The translations under genes and the position numbers were made by a program. A stretch of 51,014 nucleotides of DNA from Verrucomicrobiota bacterium (GTDB taxonomy: Bacteria; Verrucomicrobiota; Verrucomicrobiia; Limisphaerales; UBA9464): NCBI GenBank assembly GCA_947471985.1, contig CANIZL010000045.1, positions 1 through 51,014 on the forward strand, given 5' to 3'. Shown one piece after another: positions 27,785 through 46,952 of this stretch (position 1 is the first letter of the stretch; every line of letters begins with the position of its first letter). Under the pieces are notes generated by a model. The model saw nothing but the letters and a program-made list of their open reading frames with translations. It had not been told where the DNA came from and did not search any database.

Positions 27785-28687
27785 ATGAATATCCTCCCAC
27801 TCATTTCCGCGCCCCGCCTCACTCCTCGTTCCTCACCGGCTGCCTCATTGCCGGAAACGCTCCGCTCCGACCGACCGTCGGCTCCCCAGCGCAGCGCACC
27901 CGGTTCCCCCGCCCGAGCCTTCACGCTCATCGAACTGTTGGTGGTGATCGCCATCATCGCCATCCTGGCCGGGCTTTTGCTGCCCGCCCTCGCCAAGGCC
28001 AAGTATTCCGGCATGCGCACCTTCTGCTGGAATAATATCCGGCAGCAATATCTCTCCCAGATCCTCTATGCGGGAGATCACCGCGGCCGCTTTCCCGTCC
28101 ATGAGGACGGTAGCCCGGATTATCACCGACTCGGCGGTCGCACCGACAGCATCGTCAGCTTGATGCGCGGAAAGTATGTTCCCAACACCGCCATCCTCAT
28201 CTGCCCCATCACGCGGAAGTCCTTCGGTCGGCAGTGGCTGAATTATGAGAGCATGGCCAATTTCGCGGATAAATCGACGCGGGACTACGGCGGGTGGGAC
28301 ACCACGGCGGGAAATGTTTATACGCCGTACATGTGGTTCGCGAATTTCACGGCCCAACCCGCCATGCAATTCCTGAATGACGCGGGCAAGGTGGCCCCGG
28401 AGGATCCGTCCACGGAACCGGCCTGGCCGCGCAACGAGGAGGAGTGCGAAAGCCGCCGGGCCTTCATCACGCACCGGGTCAGCGACAGTCCGGGCTCGGC
28501 CCTGTGGGACGTCGGACACCTCGGCAAATTCGGACAGGGTAGCCAAAGCAAACCACTCTGGGCCTGGTCTTCCACACCGGATCAACCCGTGGGTCAAGCC
28601 GACGGTTCCGTCATCACCCGGCCCAAGGCCCAAATCCGACCGCGCGCCAAAGGGGGACCTTCGGCCGACACCATTTACTACTATTAA
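27785..28687 (+). CDS. Prepilin-like secreted protein (type II pseudopilin N-terminus)
   Basis: A 300-residue protein. After a 45-residue polar, Pro/Ser-rich leader comes the prepilin signature [29 protein letters not shown] with Glu at mature position 5. Cleavage would follow Ala rather than Gly, common in verrucomicrobial homologues. The C-terminal domain is of the type found by the dozen in Verrucomicrobia and Planctomycetes (DUF1559-like), with one or two cysteines (FCWNN, ILICPIT). ATG 27785 gives MNILPLI; longer frames upstream look non-coding. It precedes a DapA-family aldolase by 16 bases; any functional link is unclear. Exact role unknown. Confidence 0.75.
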
Positions 28688-40967: not shown

Positions 40968-41960
40968 TCAGCGCAGGCTCTTCTGCAACCGCTCCCAATC
41001 GAAGGCCGGGCCGGGGTCCAACTTCTCCGCCTGCACATGGTAGTGTCCCAGGATGCCGTGAAATCGATTCAATTCGTCAGCGGACAGCTTCTCCCGCCGC
41101 ACGGCCCCGGAAGCGTCCCGCGGGAATTCCGGTCGCAGGGCCGGGAAAATGCGGGTCAGCGATTTCGCCAGCCGACCGAGGGCGACGTACTGCTCGGGCG
41201 TGAAGTCGTACTGCACCAAAGTCTCGTTTTGAATGCGTCCAACGATCGGCTCGGGCCGCGCCGGATGGCCGACAAATCCCGGTGTGCGAATGCCCGTGGG
41301 ACCAATCCATTCGGGAAACGTCAGCCGGGGCGGTCCGCCGGCTTGGGGTGCATACCACGCTTCCAGACGCTTCTGCTGGGCCACCGGGACAGCCCCGATC
41401 TGGGCGATTTCTATCCCCACCGCCCGGCTGTTGGCCGAGGTGGCGTGCCAGGCGCGCTCCTTCAGATCGAGGGTTTGATAAAGGGTGCCATCCACATCGA
41501 GCAAAAAGTGAACACTCAAGTCCCGCTCGTCGTGCAGCACCTGGAAGCAGCGGCGACTCGTCCCACTGGCATCGAAGTGCAATACAAATTGATCCACCAC
41601 CCGCTGCAGCGTGGGCAGGTCCCAGCCGTTCGTGCGCACCCGTTCCAACTCCACGGGCGGCAGCGCGGTGGTACGACGGAAGCCATAGCGGTTGGGCGTT
41701 TCGAGCTGGGGATTGGCCGCCTGCGATGCCTTCCAATCGGCCTGCTCGGCGGGCGCAAACCGGCGCTCCACCCGATACGCATCATAGCCCCCGGGATCCA
41801 ACCACGTCACCACCGGCGTGCCCGTATGAAAGAAACGGCCGCACACCACGATCTCATCGCCCGTCCGGGGCACGGGCTTTCCGGCCCGGCGACCGGTGAA
41901 ACATCCGCCCGCCAAACTGGCAAGAAGGAGGAACCAAACCCAACGCAGGGACGGAAGCAT
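40968..41960 (-). CDS. N-acetylmuramoyl-L-alanine amidase lipoprotein (AmpD/Amidase_2)
   Basis: A 330-residue lipoprotein: MLPSLRWVWFLLLASLAGGC places the lipid-anchored cysteine at residue 20. The Amidase_2 domain is visible as FVLHFDASGTSRRCFQVLHDERDLSVHFLLDVDGTLYQTL with a zinc-ligand His, ERAWHATSANSRAVGIEI, and late in the chain GHYHVQAEKLDPGPAFDW with the final His and the K-x-D-P-G-P-x-F-x-W motif. It should cut the amide bond between muramic acid and the peptide, outside the cytoplasm. The start upstream of 41960 in the same frame overlaps the divergent transglycosylase region and is unlikely. Confidence 0.9.
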   Translation of the reverse strand: MLPSLRWVWFLLLASLAGGCFTGRRAGKPVPRTGDEIVVCGRFFHTGTPVVTWLDPGGYDAYRVERRFAPAEQADWKASQAANPQLETPNRYGFRRTTALPPVELERVRTNGWDLPTLQRVVDQFVLHFDASGTSRRCFQVLHDERDLSVHFLLDVDGTLYQTLDLKERAWHATSANSRAVGIEIAQIGAVPVAQQKRLEAWYAPQAGGPPRLTFPEWIGPTGIRTPGFVGHPARPEPIVGRIQNETLVQYDFTPEQYVALGRLAKSLTRIFPALRPEFPRDASGAVRREKLSADELNRFHGILGHYHVQAEKLDPGPAFDWERLQKSLR

Positions 41961-42090
41961 GCCGCCGTTTCTAGTTCGCGCGACCACCGGAGGAAAACCA
42001 AACCCGCGCCGCGGACGAAGCGGAACGGGCCGCGTCGAGGGACAACAATCCACCCCGGGAAGCGAGTTTCCGCTCGCTCCCGGGGTGGCG

Positions 42091-43404
42091 ATGGGGCTGA
42101 TTGACTGCGTGCTTCATCCCGACTGGAGTGGACGGAATCGGTGGCGCGCCCGGTGGGTGCCGGCCGCCCTATCCGCCATCCTGCTCACGGGCCGGTCGGT
42201 GAGCGCGCAGGACGAGGTCTTCGATTTTTCGTTGGATCGCCTCCGGCAACAAGTCGACGAACTGGTGAAGGAACATCTGCCGGACAGCGATCTGGAATTG
42301 CCCGAGCCGGATCCGGCGCAAATGGACGAATTCTTCCGGCAATTGCAGGCGCAGCTGGAAGGCGAGTACGTGTTGGATCTGGTGCCCTTCAAGCGCACCG
42401 TCGATTTTCTCCTGCCGCTGCTGGAGGCTCACGAACCCCTGCGCGATCTCGGGACCTGGTTGCGCAGCCGCCGGGATTATTTCGAGGTCCTGGATGAGCT
42501 GAACGTCGTCGTGCCCCCGACGACGACCACCAACGCCCCGGCCACCGTTATCCCACCACCGCCGGAAGCCCTAACCCGCCCAACGGCTCCCCGCCCGCCC
42601 GTCATCGTCCCGCCGCCCCAGCCACCTCCCGGCAAAGCTGCCGCGGCCACCCAACTGACGAACCAAGTGACGGCCGAGATCGCCCGCGACGACGAAGAGC
42701 CGGTGGCGGTGAACGTGGTGATCGTCCCCCCGCCCACTGCGATCCCACCGGCACCGCGCCCACCCACCACTCCCGGGGCGGCTCCACCAGCACCCCAGCG
42801 CCCTGCGCCCCCAACCTTGCGCCGGGACAATCCGCCGCAAGAGGCGGTGCGCGCCGCGTGGTCGCGGCAGTTGGCCGGGCGCGATCTACCCGCGGGTGCG
42901 GTCACTTGGGTGCCCCGACTGAAGCCGATCTTCCTCGCCGCCGGAATCCCGGCCGAATTGGTTTGGTTGGCGGAGGTGGAATCGGGCTTCGATCCCCGGG
43001 CCCGCAGTCCCTCGGGAGCCGTTGGTTTGTACCAACTCATGCCGATCACCGGGCGCAGTTTGGGGCTGAGCACATTTCCCTTCGACCAACGCAAGGACCC
43101 GGAAAAATCCTCCCGCGCCGCCGCCCGCTACCTGCGCCAGCTCTATGATCAATTGGGTGACTGGCCGCTGGTTCTGGCGGCCTACAACGCCGGGCCATCG
43201 CGGGTGCGGATGCTGCTGACCGCCCACCGGGCCGCCACCTTCGGCGAAATCGCCCGCCACCTGCCGGCGGAGACGCAATTGTACGTCCCCAAATTTGAAG
43301 CCGTCTTGCAACGACGAGAGGGTCTGCGCTGGGCAGATCTGACCACGCCGGAATCCCTTCCGGGTCCGCTGGGTAACGACCCCGCCAAACGCCCCCCCAA
43401 GTAG
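42091..43404 (+). CDS. Lytic transglycosylase (SLT domain) with Pro-rich linker
   Basis: The 437-residue protein has an N-terminal hydrophobic signal (WVPAALSAILLTGRSVSAQDE, cleavage near SAQ), a helical acidic domain (43-135), a long Pro/Thr/Ala-rich linker (about 150-245), and an SLT transglycosylase domain (about 260-420). The catalytic Glu is E297 in VWLAEVESGFDP; the family motifs SPSGAVGLYQLMPITGRSLGL and LVLAAYNAGPSRVR follow. It should cleave glycan strands of peptidoglycan in the periplasm, non-hydrolytically. It is divergent from the amidase gene; both act on the wall, so a shared regulatory region is plausible. ATG 42091 is chosen for its fit to the signal; a longer frame begins at 41896. 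Confidence 0.9.
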   Translation: MGLIDCVLHPDWSGRNRWRARWVPAALSAILLTGRSVSAQDEVFDFSLDRLRQQVDELVKEHLPDSDLELPEPDPAQMDEFFRQLQAQLEGEYVLDLVPFKRTVDFLLPLLEAHEPLRDLGTWLRSRRDYFEVLDELNVVVPPTTTTNAPATVIPPPPEALTRPTAPRPPVIVPPPQPPPGKAAAATQLTNQVTAEIARDDEEPVAVNVVIVPPPTAIPPAPRPPTTPGAAPPAPQRPAPPTLRRDNPPQEAVRAAWSRQLAGRDLPAGAVTWVPRLKPIFLAAGIPAELVWLAEVESGFDPRARSPSGAVGLYQLMPITGRSLGLSTFPFDQRKDPEKSSRAAARYLRQLYDQLGDWPLVLAAYNAGPSRVRMLLTAHRAATFGEIARHLPAETQLYVPKFEAVLQRREGLRWADLTTPESLPGPLGNDPAKRPPK

Positions 43405-43492
43405 AGCAGATTCCTTCGGGCCTCCCGGAGTCAGGCTCACTTTCCTGTCCGCTTGCCGGGGGCGTCGCCCATATTGTGGATGAGTGAGCGAC

Positions 43493-44758
43493 ATGAGCGG
43501 GGAAACGAATGTTGAGCAACCGCAGTCGGATTACAGCCTCCTGCGAGCCTACGTGGATCGCGGGGATGAGGCGGCCTTTTCCGAGCTGGTCAGCCGTTAT
43601 GTCGGGATGGTCCATGCCTCGGCCCTGCGGCAAACCAGCCGTTCGGACCTGGCGGAAGACATCGTCCAGGCCGTCTTTATCCTGTTGGCCCGCAAGGCGG
43701 CAACCTTCGATCCACAGATATTGTTGGGCGGCTGGTTGTTTCGTTCGGTCCGGTTTGCCGCCAATGATTTGCTCAAAGCAGAACGACGTCGCCAGTTTCG
43801 GGAAACGGTTGCCTACACCATGAAAGAACAAGCAGACAAGGTCACTGAAATGGCCGGTCCAGGTAAGACCGATGACGATCTTTGGAAGCAGGTGGCGCCG
43901 GAGATCGATGGGTGCCTGGGGCAATTGGGCGAGACGGATCGCATGGCGATTCTGTTGCGCTTCTTTGAAGAAAAGTCCTTTCCCGAGGTCGGCGCCGCCC
44001 TGCGCTTGAGTGAAGAGGCGGCCCGGAAACGGGTGAATCGGGCGCTGGAAAAACTGCAATCCCTGCTCCAGCGGCGGGGATTAACCGCCTCGGCACTGGG
44101 TTTGAGCACGCTCCTTTCGACCCAAGCGGCCAGTTCCGTGTCCGCCGCCGCCGTACCCGCCGGTCTCGGATCCAAGGTGGCGGTGGTGGCGTTGGCGGCC
44201 CAAGCGGGCACCGCCGCCCCGGCGTCGGCGATCACGTTGGCCCAATCCGTGGCGACCAAATGGGCGTGGGTGCAAGCCAAAGCGTGGCTGTGGGGCGCAG
44301 GCACCGTGGCGGCCGTGGGTACTGTCGCGGGGGTGCTCCTGACCCAGCTGCCGTCGAACAGCGACGGAGCCGCGGGAGTCTCGGCCGGGCGACGGGACGA
44401 CTACCGGGTGGCCGGGTTTCCGGATGCGACCCGGGTTCATGCGGTGATTGCTGAGCTGCAGGCCGCGGTGGCTCGCGGCGACGCCAAAGCTGTAGCCGCC
44501 CGAGTGCGCTTTCCCTTGCGGCTGAATTCCACGAACGGCGTCACGCTGGTCCCCGATGCCGCGACATTCATTGCGGAGTTCAGTCAGATTTTCCCGCCGG
44601 AGGTCCGCTCGGCCCTGGCCAAGTGTCCACGCTCCGCGCTTTTCAGCAGTACCGAAGGGGTCATGATTGGCAGCGGCGACTTGTGGCTGGCACCCGCGGC
44701 GCCCGACAATGCCGATCCCCGGCTCGCGGCCATCAATCTCAAAGTCGCCCCCCGGTGA
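43493..44758 (+). CDS. ECF-type sigma factor with C-terminal membrane-spanning extension
   Basis: A 421-residue protein. Sigma-70 region 2 (about 15-85) carries LLRAYVDRGDEAAFSELVSRYVGMVHASALRQ and DLAEDIVQAVFILLARKA; region 4 (about 125-190) carries LRFFEEKSFPEVGAALRLSEEAARKRVNRALEKLQ. An Ala-rich segment and a membrane helix, WLWGAGTVAAVGTVAGVLLTQL (about 265-287), follow; the last 130 residues contain AVIAELQAAVARGDAKAVAARVRFPLR, like small NTF2/SnoaL-like modules. Such self-tethered ECF factors occur in Planctomycetes and Verrucomicrobia; the extension may act as a sensor or built-in anti-sigma (inference). The start is ATG 43493 or GTG 43484. Its stop overlaps a GTG in the frame of the next gene. 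Confidence 0.85.
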   Translation: MSGETNVEQPQSDYSLLRAYVDRGDEAAFSELVSRYVGMVHASALRQTSRSDLAEDIVQAVFILLARKAATFDPQILLGGWLFRSVRFAANDLLKAERRRQFRETVAYTMKEQADKVTEMAGPGKTDDDLWKQVAPEIDGCLGQLGETDRMAILLRFFEEKSFPEVGAALRLSEEAARKRVNRALEKLQSLLQRRGLTASALGLSTLLSTQAASSVSAAAVPAGLGSKVAVVALAAQAGTAAPASAITLAQSVATKWAWVQAKAWLWGAGTVAAVGTVAGVLLTQLPSNSDGAAGVSAGRRDDYRVAGFPDATRVHAVIAELQAAVARGDAKAVAARVRFPLRLNSTNGVTLVPDAATFIAEFSQIFPPEVRSALAKCPRSALFSSTEGVMIGSGDLWLAPAAPDNADPRLAAINLKVAPR

Positions 44759-44856
44759 AATCGGCTCTCTCGGACTTCGCGCACTGGGCGCAGCGACCTC
44801 CGGGATCCGGCCCCAACTTGCTGCCGCGGGCTTTTGGGAGTATTCATGCCTTTGAA

Positions 44857-45567
44857 ATGGCGCCGCGCCGAATAGTTTTCCGAGGCTCTCGGGGCTTCAG
44901 CATGGTGGAACTGCTTGCAGTGACCGCGGTCATCGGCGTTTTGGCGGGCCTCACCCTACCGGCCCTCGCGTCGGCCATGAGCCGGGCCCGGTCCATTCAG
45001 TGCCTGAATCAACTCCGCCAACTGGGCCTGGGTCTCAAACTCTACGCGGATGCCGATCCCTCCGGCCGGCTGCCCACCACGGACAGTGACCTGCCGCCCA
45101 TCGCCGGTCGCCCGCTGGATTCCTGGGTCCTGTCCCTGACGAATCAACTGCCGTCGTCCGCCGCCCTGCGGATATGTCCTTCGGACGCCGCCAAGCGCCA
45201 GCGCAAACGGGCGGGTGAGTTGAGTTCCAGTTATCTGCTCAACACCTGTCTGGACCACATTCTCGGCGCGGACGGCCTGCCGCTCGCTTTGGCGGCCAGT
45301 TGTCCGAGCTTGGATCGACTGCCCTCTCCGGCCGCCAGTTTCATCACCTTTGAAGCTTCCCTGGCTGGCTACCTCGCCGGTGAGGATCGGGTCCATCCCG
45401 AGACCTGGCTCTTGGGCTGGCCGCATGTGCAGGCGGATATCGATCCCACCCGGCATGGACGCGGCGCGAATTACCTTTTCGGCGACGGGCATGTGCAGGC
45501 GGTATCGGCATTGGAACTGCGGGGACGGATCGAGCGCGGGGACAATTTCGCCGTACCCCCGCCATGA
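44857..45567 (+). CDS. Prepilin-like secreted protein
   Basis: A 236-residue protein with prepilin signature GSRG-FSMVELLAVTAVIGVLAGLTLPALASAMSRAR, cleaved after Gly with Glu at mature position 5. The following domain has RSIQCLNQLRQLGLGLKLYADADPSGRLP and ends NYLFGDGHVQAVSAL, the DUF1559-like/H-x-G-D-G-H end seen in many verrucomicrobial prepilin-like proteins. ATG 44857 is preceded by GGGAG rather far upstream; a GTG at 44755 overlapping the sigma stop would give a 34-residue longer leader. Its stop overlaps the RCC1 gene start (ATGA), so the series sigma, prepilin and RCC1 is likely one operon. Confidence 0.78.
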   Translation: MAPRRIVFRGSRGFSMVELLAVTAVIGVLAGLTLPALASAMSRARSIQCLNQLRQLGLGLKLYADADPSGRLPTTDSDLPPIAGRPLDSWVLSLTNQLPSSAALRICPSDAAKRQRKRAGELSSSYLLNTCLDHILGADGLPLALAASCPSLDRLPSPAASFITFEASLAGYLAGEDRVHPETWLLGWPHVQADIDPTRHGRGANYLFGDGHVQAVSALELRGRIERGDNFAVPPP

Positions 45568-46952
45568 AACCCGTGCCGAAGGCCGCCCATGGGCGTCATC
45601 TCGCTCGCGGCGCCTGGTTGCTGGGCCTGACCGCTTTGTCAACGTTTCTGACCAGCGCCCAAACCAACATTACCGGGCTGGACATCTTTAACCTCACCGG
45701 GCAGGCAAATTTCCGCTCCGCCTACACGTTCGAAATCACGGGCTGGGGAGCCACCGGACTGAACGGGCCGGCCTACAATTTCAACCAGGTAATTTCCTCT
45801 CCCGAGCTGCCCCCCGGGGCTCCCGGATCAGCCGTCGATCTGGGTGCGCTGGCACAGAACTACGCCAGCATTTCCGCGCTCACCAATACCATCCATCTGA
45901 CCGCCAATACCGTGGGCGTGGCGTGTGGTGAAAAGCACACGCTGCTGCTAAAACGCGACGGCACCGTCCAGTCCATCGGCAGCTTCCAGTCCGGTCAGGT
46001 CTCAATTCCCGGCAACCTTTCCAACGTCGTCGCCGTGGCCGCCGGCACCGATCACAACCTGGCGCTGACCGGGGACGGCCGCGTCGTGGCCTGGGGCTGG
46101 AACAACGCCCATCAACTGTGCGTCCCGTCCGATCTTGCCGGGGTTCGGTGTGTGGCCGCCGGACGAAACTACAGCCTGGCTTTGCTCACGAATGGAACGG
46201 TGCGCGCCTGGGGCGGCGCCGATAACGATGCCGACGACTGGTTGGAAGGTGGAGAAATGGAGCCGCCGTCCGACCTGCGCGAACCGTCTACCAACCGGGT
46301 TATCGCCATCGCCGCCGGCGCCCGGCACGCCCTCGCCCTGCAGGCCAATGGCACGGTGGTCGGCTGGGGCGAAGGTCCGGACCGCTCCGCTTGGACACCC
46401 CCGGCCGGATACGAACCCTTTACCGCCCTCAGCGCCGGCAGCGGCTTCAGTGTCGGCTTGCGCCCCGACGGAACCGTCCGCGCCTGGGGCGATAATCGGT
46501 ATCACCAATTGGACGTTCCTCCCGGACTCAATCGCGTCGTGGCCCTGGCGTGCGGTAACTACCATACGCTTGCCCTCCGCAACGACGGCACCGTGGTCGC
46601 CTGGGGAAACAATTCCGCCGGACAGACCGACGTACCCGCCGAGGCAAGTCACGTCGTCGCCATCGCTGCCGGCGGCTTCCATAGCGAGATTCTGGAACAA
46701 TCGGGTCCCCTGATGTCCCAAGCGCGGATGGAGGGCGGGGACTTTCATTGTGAAATGAATCTGACGGCCGGACAGCGTTACCGGGTGCAGGCCTCCGCGG
46801 ATCTGCGCGAATGGCTCACCGTGGAGGTCGGCACCGCCTTGCCGCCTTCGATGGGCTGGTCCTACCGGGCTCGCAGCACGGGCGCCGCTTTCTATCGGGT
46901 GCAGCGGATCCTGCCCGACGAACCGGATTACGCTCCGGTCAACCTCCCGTAG
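45564..46952 (+). CDS. Exported RCC1-repeat beta-propeller protein
   Basis: A 462-residue protein with signal MKPVPKAAHGRHLARGAWLLGLTALSTFLTSAQT. About six or seven RCC1-type repeats follow, each of the form V-x-A-(V/I)-A-A-G-x-x-H-x-L-A-L-x-x-D-G-x-V-x-A-W-G: VVAVAAGTDHNLALTGDGRVVAWG, VRCVAAGRNYSLALLTNGTVRAWG, VIAIAAGARHALALQANGTVVGWG, VVALACGNYHTLALRNDGTVVAWG. The last 80 residues (CEMNLTAGQRYRVQASADLREWLTVE) are a C-terminal module common in secreted verrucomicrobial proteins, perhaps for outer-surface attachment. RCC1 repeats in bacteria often bind proteins; no partner is known here. Confidence 0.88.
   Translation: MKPVPKAAHGRHLARGAWLLGLTALSTFLTSAQTNITGLDIFNLTGQANFRSAYTFEITGWGATGLNGPAYNFNQVISSPELPPGAPGSAVDLGALAQNYASISALTNTIHLTANTVGVACGEKHTLLLKRDGTVQSIGSFQSGQVSIPGNLSNVVAVAAGTDHNLALTGDGRVVAWGWNNAHQLCVPSDLAGVRCVAAGRNYSLALLTNGTVRAWGGADNDADDWLEGGEMEPPSDLREPSTNRVIAIAAGARHALALQANGTVVGWGEGPDRSAWTPPAGYEPFTALSAGSGFSVGLRPDGTVRAWGDNRYHQLDVPPGLNRVVALACGNYHTLALRNDGTVVAWGNNSAGQTDVPAEASHVVAIAAGGFHSEILEQSGPLMSQARMEGGDFHCEMNLTAGQRYRVQASADLREWLTVEVGTALPPSMGWSYRARSTGAAFYRVQRILPDEPDYAPVNLP

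Follow-up and report, generated by a model that had tools for sequence, protein, structure and literature searches.

C-terminal extensions appear in many groups of extracytoplasmic function (ECF) sigma factors, and their characterization has only begun (PMC8103513). The described systems closest to the one reported here are of two kinds. In the first, exemplified by IutY (ECF243), an ECF sigma factor carries a C-terminal membrane segment and an extracytoplasmic part, and its proteolytic release by Prc and RseP has been shown (PMC8999054). The second includes ECF41, whose promoter has the form TGTCACA-N16-CGTC (PMC3426412). Here we describe a sigma factor gene from a Verrucomicrobiota bacterium, together with the genes for a prepilin-like protein and an exported RCC1-repeat protein that follow it on the same strand, at positions 43,493 to 46,952 of contig CANIZL010000045.1 (51,014 nucleotides; the window analyzed is the whole contig). 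The sigma and pilin genes stay together across genera, and the sigma gene is preceded by a putative promoter whose -35 letters track residues of the sigma recognition helix.

Gene content and gene order

The sigma protein has the ECF arrangement of regions 2 and 4 only, without region 3, with Pfam matches to Sigma70_r2 (PF04542; 6.1e-10) and Sigma70_r4 (PF04545; 9e-10) that are both above cut-off, and a TIGR02937 score of 73.5 bits against a cut-off of 42.9. Beyond region 4 lie a predicted membrane segment and an outer domain (Table 1), as a preliminary description of this DNA had proposed, although the domain comes to about 120 residues and not the 130 given there. No anti-sigma or zinc-finger domain is present between sigma4 and the membrane segment among the Pfam/NCBIfam matches shown, and no anti-sigma gene was recognized at the level of open reading frames (ORFs) in the loci examined, both of which fit the earlier suggestion that the extension replaces an anti-sigma factor.

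The two neighbors are also those first described, a prepilin-like protein and an exported RCC1 propeller, now identified by Pfam/NCBIfam. The former has the class III signal peptide and C-terminal motif of the H-X9-DG/DUF1559 pseudopilins, with scores of 1.9e-4 for N_methyl (21.3 bits versus a cut-off of 21.2), 2.9e-6 for SBP_bac_10/DUF1559 (28 bits versus 23.3) and 9.3e-5 for the H-X9-DG model TIGR04294 (22.1 versus 19). We know of no function for this general family. The three genes had been said to overlap or abut, which holds for the pilin and RCC1 genes with their ATGA overlap at 45564, but not for the sigma and pilin genes, as 98 nt separate the sigma stop from the best pilin start (ATG 44857); the pilin reading frame nonetheless stays open back into the sigma gene.

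When the outer domain (residues 297–421) was searched against 96 related genomes, sigma relatives with the same domain were found in 14 of them, own genome counted, and 14 loci were fetched from all 13 others. There are several notable features of these loci. First, in all 12 loci with enough contig the sigma gene is followed on the same strand by a pilin gene, giving 13 of 13 with the window (the G023 contig stops within the sigma gene); the downstream pilins are 37–50% identical to that of the window, and the sigma and pilin genes overlap directly (start/stop) in L067 and L072. Second, the set spans eight genera (its own, g1, together with g2, g3, g4, g7, g9, g21 and g37), the four near-identical g3 genomes being counted as one lineage. 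Third, RCC1 is on the same strand in nine of 11 informative loci, located after the pilin in the own genome, G003, G009, G042, G044, G048 and G061, and ahead of the sigma gene in G001 and G015, while the contigs of G010 and G037 end too soon downstream to be counted. Finally, the other neighbor proteins of the window have no tblastn match in the orthologue loci. Gene order is kept far beyond chance; RCC1 is the least fixed of the three members, and the coupling of sigma and pilin is both tighter and older than that of sigma and RCC1. The conservation of gene order that the preliminary description proposed as a check is borne out, and the sigma orthologues do not have unrelated neighbors. Frame breaks interrupt the L072 pilin (which was omitted from the pilin alignment) and the L073 sigma gene, both otherwise conserved, and represent either draft assembly error or decay.

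The sigma factor belongs to a wider superfamily with matches in 62 of the 96 genomes (E 1e-20), and its own genome encodes nine further members (loci L009–L017) of up to 1205 residues. These provide controls for the adjacency of the pilin. No prepilin motif is present at any of the nine paralogue loci (limited flanks; two stop shortly past the sigma gene), a pilin lies downstream at four of 17 loci from other genomes (again with limited flanks), and one is found within 1.2 kb downstream in two of 33 other superfamily members with the sigma located (40 loci were picked by extension length, seven of which were dropped with sigma4 not found by pattern). Pilin pairing is thus a feature of the branch containing the window sigma and a few others, not of the whole superfamily. 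Outside the orthologue group, same-strand pilins follow superfamily sigma factors at L035, L042, L043 and L045, the four just counted, and at L230 and L255. At all 15 of the other loci fetched for related pilins there is no sigma or RCC1 match nearby, and a sigma partner is therefore not general for such pilins. A second, widespread pilin paralogue in the relatives (L108–L122) is often adjacent to a small His-rich protein and to exported proteins whose starts resemble 'GHTD(V/M)G..YED', with no sigma factor nearby.

Table 1. Locations of the sigma factor, its predicted parts, its putative promoter and its neighbors in the window.
Feature	Position	Strand	Details
Putative autoregulated ECF promoter core	43446..43466	+	-35 TGTCCGCTT; -10 CGTC (TGTCCGCTTGCCGGGGGCGTC)
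ECF sigma factor (421 residues) bearing a transmembrane-like segment and an NTF2-like domain at its C-terminus	43493..44758	+	ATG 43493, TGA 44756-44758
Sigma region 2, residues 32-100	43586..43792	+	Pfam PF04542
Sigma region 4, residues 141-189	43913..44059	+	Pfam PF04545; R178/K179 at 44024-44029 covary with the -35 element
Predicted single transmembrane segment, residues 265-283 (WLWGAGTVAAVGTVAGVLL)	44285..44341	+	Hydropathy and charge scan; AlphaFold2 (AF2) confidence low here
C-terminal NTF2/SnoaL-like domain, predicted extracytoplasmic, residues 302-421	44396..44755	+	Orthologue alignment; AF2; fold searches
Pseudopilin-like protein, prepilin motif GFSMVE at 44893, H-X9-DG C-terminus	44857..45567	+	Pfam/NCBIfam; start inferred
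Exported RCC1-repeat (beta-propeller) protein	45564..46952	+	RCC1_2 9.4e-55; ATGA common with pilin stop

Promoter motif and recognition helix

A common promoter motif upstream of 43493 had been proposed as a check, and a repeated two-part motif near the start codon was first noticed in reading the orthologue upstreams; its copy in the window lies at the position shown in Table 1, and the window-specific form matches once in the window versus 0.10 expected. Written as TGT[CT][ACG][CG]N[TC]T-N9-12-CG, the pattern has matches in 17 of the 37 superfamily upstreams first examined (0.48 on average and at most 4 after shuffling), a post hoc count as these 37 served to build it. The sole independent test is provided by 40 held-out upstreams, of which 27 contain the pattern (shuffles mean 0.59, maximum 5), with none in their reverse complements and two in a stretch farther upstream. 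In L072 and L073, where RCC1 comes first, the -35 half (TTTGTCCGGTTT) is ahead of RCC1 and not of the sigma gene. The motif has the position and form of an ECF-type promoter, which we propose is autoregulated. A wider regulon scan of the own genome gave seven matches against two in the reversed control; besides that of the window, five fall within reading frames, and the remaining one precedes an ORF of 389 residues by 74 nt. A scan of the region for standard sigma-70 promoters and terminators was uninformative.

The letters of the -35 element vary together with two residues of the recognition helix. Mutual information between the -35 positions and every aligned sigma residue, calculated for 58 of 77 genes (the other 19 upstreams, with no -35 above 8 bits, were dropped), has its highest value for the pair of residue 179 and position 4 (z 26.9), followed by residue 178 and position 6 (z 20.4); the next distinct one scores 11.1, and none in sigma2 exceeds 6.5. 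A lysine at residue 179 occurs with C at position 4 in 36 of 36 cases, and methionine or valine with T or G in 22 of 22. At residue 178, arginine occurs with CG at positions 5–6 (26/26), lysine with C at position 6 (19/20), and glutamine with GG (7/11). The pairings recur among the 27 held-out upstreams that match the strict pattern (K-C 16/16, M/V-T 11/11, R-CG 12/12), a pattern that by itself allows just C or T at position 4. The -35 letters of the window agree with its own residues, R178 and K179.

In Bacillus subtilis SigW, residues K170 and T171 contact -35 bases, with K170 pairing with C at -31 (PMC6713349). Residues 178 and 179 probably correspond to these two, judging from an alignment with M. 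tuberculosis SigE and a SigW register taken from the contact spacing, and the SigW pairing resembles that of K178 in the superfamily. A quick tree built without the recognition helix has eight changes each of residue 179 and position 4. The residue 178/179 combinations seen are R-K, K-K, Q-K, R-M and K-M, such that the two positions vary independently, which argues against simple shared descent. Because the -35 letters track the recognition helix, each superfamily sigma factor very probably reads its own promoter, and the pairings above could serve as a simple promoter code, open to test, by which each sigma factor is matched to its own operon.

Outer domain, topology and proposed mechanism

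A fold search with the full-length AF2 model was dominated by the sigma part, and a model of the outer domain alone was used (about 120 residues; predicted local distance difference test 91, predicted template modeling score 0.83). All 50 Foldseek rows are weak (best E 7.4e-3) but are mostly NTF2-like, ketosteroid-isomerase and SnoaL-like proteins, including SigJ (5xe7) and SigG1 (7qh5), and VIA-align gives Z scores of up to 8.7 over 99–103 residues at 3.4–3.9 Å, mostly to the NTF2-like fold class. The modeled fold is NTF2-like, without functional implication. Comparison of the domain with Pfam and PDB sequences gives nothing significant, the fold being predicted from the AF2 model alone, and none of the 14 orthologue outer domains has a SnoaL Pfam match. 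Identity across genera is 34–50%.

In the full-length model sigma2 and sigma4 are moderately good and the outer domain very good, while residues 213–300 are not confident. Residues 265–283 form the most hydrophobic stretch ahead of the outer domain, with two K/R just before and none just after, and in most superfamily members checked a hydrophobic segment lies 61–80 residues past the recognition helix and is preceded by basic residues. The outer domain itself resembles parts of exported proteins with lipoprotein-like or signal-peptide-like starts. There is good support for the predicted location of this domain outside the cytoplasmic membrane, as first suggested, and the lipoprotein-like homologues together with the hydrophobic segment and its preceding basic residues disfavor a cytoplasmic extension. 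The domain or a relative is also found without a sigma part in exported or lipoprotein-like proteins at L088, L092, L094, L099 and L100.

We think it rather probable that the three genes represent one self-activated operon with a membrane-tethered sigma factor that is released on a signal and drives sigma, pseudopilin and RCC1. The three genes would be co-transcribed. Regions 2 and 4 would lie in the cytoplasm, joined by one membrane helix to the NTF2-like domain outside, with no anti-sigma factor encoded, and the tethered sigma would be inactive or weakly active. The outer domain would sense a change – perhaps in the level of the co-encoded pseudopilin or its state of assembly, or a small ligand occupying the NTF2 pocket – and sigma2–sigma4 would be released, most simply by regulated intramembrane proteolysis. 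Once freed, sigma would transcribe its own operon from the 43446–43466 promoter and increase the levels of sigma, pseudopilin and the RCC1 surface protein alike, and the pilin would be a partner rather than merely a target. The parts of this mechanism that rest on computation are the domain content, the conserved gene order and the positioned promoter motif that tracks the recognition helix; the 'surface-sensing' role given to the gene set in the preliminary description is a guess. The genome also encodes an M50 site-2-type protease and a prepilin peptidase.

Several observations weigh against this mechanism. First, one locus (L074, genome G077) lacks RCC1, and at another (L070, genome G029) a large exported protein of immunoglobulin (Ig) type takes its place. 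Second, L072 and L073 fail the full two-part pattern ahead of RCC1, and the own-genome scan gave no convincing second promoter target, such that no regulon is claimed. Third, just two independent residue–letter pairs fall on well-supported branches of the tree, which, while both concordant, are too few for a phylogeny-corrected test. Fourth, the membrane segment is marginally hydrophobic in L061, L063–L065, L067 and L068, and AF2 models neither the linker nor the segment with confidence, so that no inhibitory contact is visible. Finally, since every one of the 14 control genomes encodes M50 proteases, finding one here carries little weight.

We give an even chance to a reading in which pilin and RCC1 are outputs, with sigma sensing an unrelated envelope or chemical signal and driving a surface appendage or secretion operon in which the pilin has no sensing part. 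Transcription of the own operon is common among ECF sigma factors, and the related pilins at the 15 loci without sigma or RCC1 often precede another exported protein, suggesting that pilin and exported protein are a recurring cargo pair. However, sigma is coupled more tightly and for longer to the pilin than to RCC1, and the C-terminal domain of other superfamily members resembles the pilin family over about 37 columns, hinting at a functional link. It is unlikely that the NTF2-like domain is cytoplasmic in the style of the ECF41/ECF56 SnoaL domains and binds both the sigma core and a ligand in the cytoplasm, with the hydrophobic stretch forming a buried or peripheral helix. Although the SnoaL domains of SigJ and SigG1 are among its structural matches and the membrane segment is weak in several orthologues, the NTF2 fold is common and fold likeness is weak evidence; moreover, the segment is clear in most superfamily members checked, at the same offset and with preceding basic residues, homologues of the domain occur in exported lipoprotein-like proteins, and several superfamily members have the Ig-like or pilin-like C-termini typical of exported proteins. 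Least probable is an anchor with no regulatory role on a sigma factor constitutively active at the membrane, its level set by autoregulation, for although no anti-sigma domain or protease partner gene was recognized in the cluster, the identity of the outer domain across genera suggests a selected function.

The lytic transglycosylase gene upstream (41896–43404) was rejected as a member of the set, having a tblastn match in none of the 14 orthologue loci. As listed, its ORF overlaps a divergent amidase-like ORF by 158 nt (41896–42053), and its true start probably lies further downstream. A second prepilin-type motif, AFTLIELL, is located at 27917 (+).

Related sigma factors and described systems

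The C-terminal parts of the nine paralogues consist of carboxypeptidase-regulatory (Ig-like) repeats, HEAT repeats, or a coiled coil with a small domain. The window sigma represents a single branch within a superfamily whose outer domains are exchangeable (Ig-like, HEAT, coiled-coil/pilin-like and NTF2-like). In L014 (6818–8227, minus strand), L231, L232, L237 and L239, the coiled coil and small domain resemble H-X9-DG pseudopilins and have a 'FADGHVE'-like motif. The L014 extension has homologues in 32 of the 96 genomes, and an alignment of L014 with 13 of the other 19 loci (L215, L216, L221, L222, L228 and L229 being omitted) matches the pilin alignment in profile comparison with a probability of 77–78 and E of about 2e-5 over 36–37 columns. 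The matched columns correspond to the segment following the pilin helix, and a C-terminal 'DG' motif is common to both by eye. Curated models do not recognize these pilin-like sigma extensions, and a sigma–pilin fusion in the L014-type members is a tentative lead.

If the proposed mechanism is right, one protein would signal across the membrane to RNA polymerase without an anti-sigma factor, and this single-protein signaling would be repeated nine more times in the same genome with different outer domains. The conserved sigma–pilin pair would likewise offer a first entry point to the function of the H-X9-DG pseudopilins, which are widespread. It is possible, although we hold it doubtful, that these lineage-specific tethered sigma factors are the local counterpart of membrane sensor kinases, combining a two-residue code for their own promoters with exchangeable outer domains; the window branch would monitor a co-encoded pseudopilin, and in other branches a pilin-like domain would have become part of the sigma factor, so that assembly of a pilus or pseudopilus would itself act as the signal for transcription. 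A search by title and abstract found no treatment of the superfamily or of the sigma–pilin pair, in a collection without most subscription articles and without the main reclassification of the ECF groups.

Among described systems, the DUF1559/H-X9-DG prepilin-like proteins include the window pilin by the N_methyl, SBP_bac_10 and H-X9-DG cut-offs, but the window subgroup is tied to a sigma factor. The canonical pairs of an ECF sigma factor and a membrane anti-sigma factor, RpoE-RseA and SigW-RsiW, share with the proposed system a membrane-held ECF sigma factor and an autoregulated operon (PMC3426412), but consist of two polypeptides where the window has one. IutY and the actinobacterial ECF48, ECF52 and ECF53 have a C-terminal membrane segment and an extracytoplasmic part; a comparable segment is predicted by hydropathy in the window sigma and most of its relatives, but is marginal in L061, L063–L065, L067 and L068. 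They carry a recognizable anti-sigma or zinc-finger domain before the membrane, whereas the window sigma has none by Pfam and its linker is modeled at low confidence; its outer domain and partner genes also differ from theirs. ECF41 and ECF56 (SigJ, SigG1; SnoaL_2) resemble the window sigma in the predicted fold of the NTF2/SnoaL-like C-terminal domain, and the ECF41 promoter resembles the window motif, although the window -35 is TGTCCGNTT and its spacer is shorter. The defining arrangement of these groups is a cytoplasmic SnoaL_2 domain placed directly behind sigma4; the window sigma has a linker of about 110 residues with a hydrophobic segment before the domain. The word 'transmembrane' is absent from the main text of the ECF41 paper (PMC3426412). 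With no anti-sigma domain, no SnoaL Pfam match and no direct attachment, the window sigma belongs, on the tests made, to neither the fused sigma/anti-sigma group nor the SnoaL-domain group, and looks like a mixture of both.

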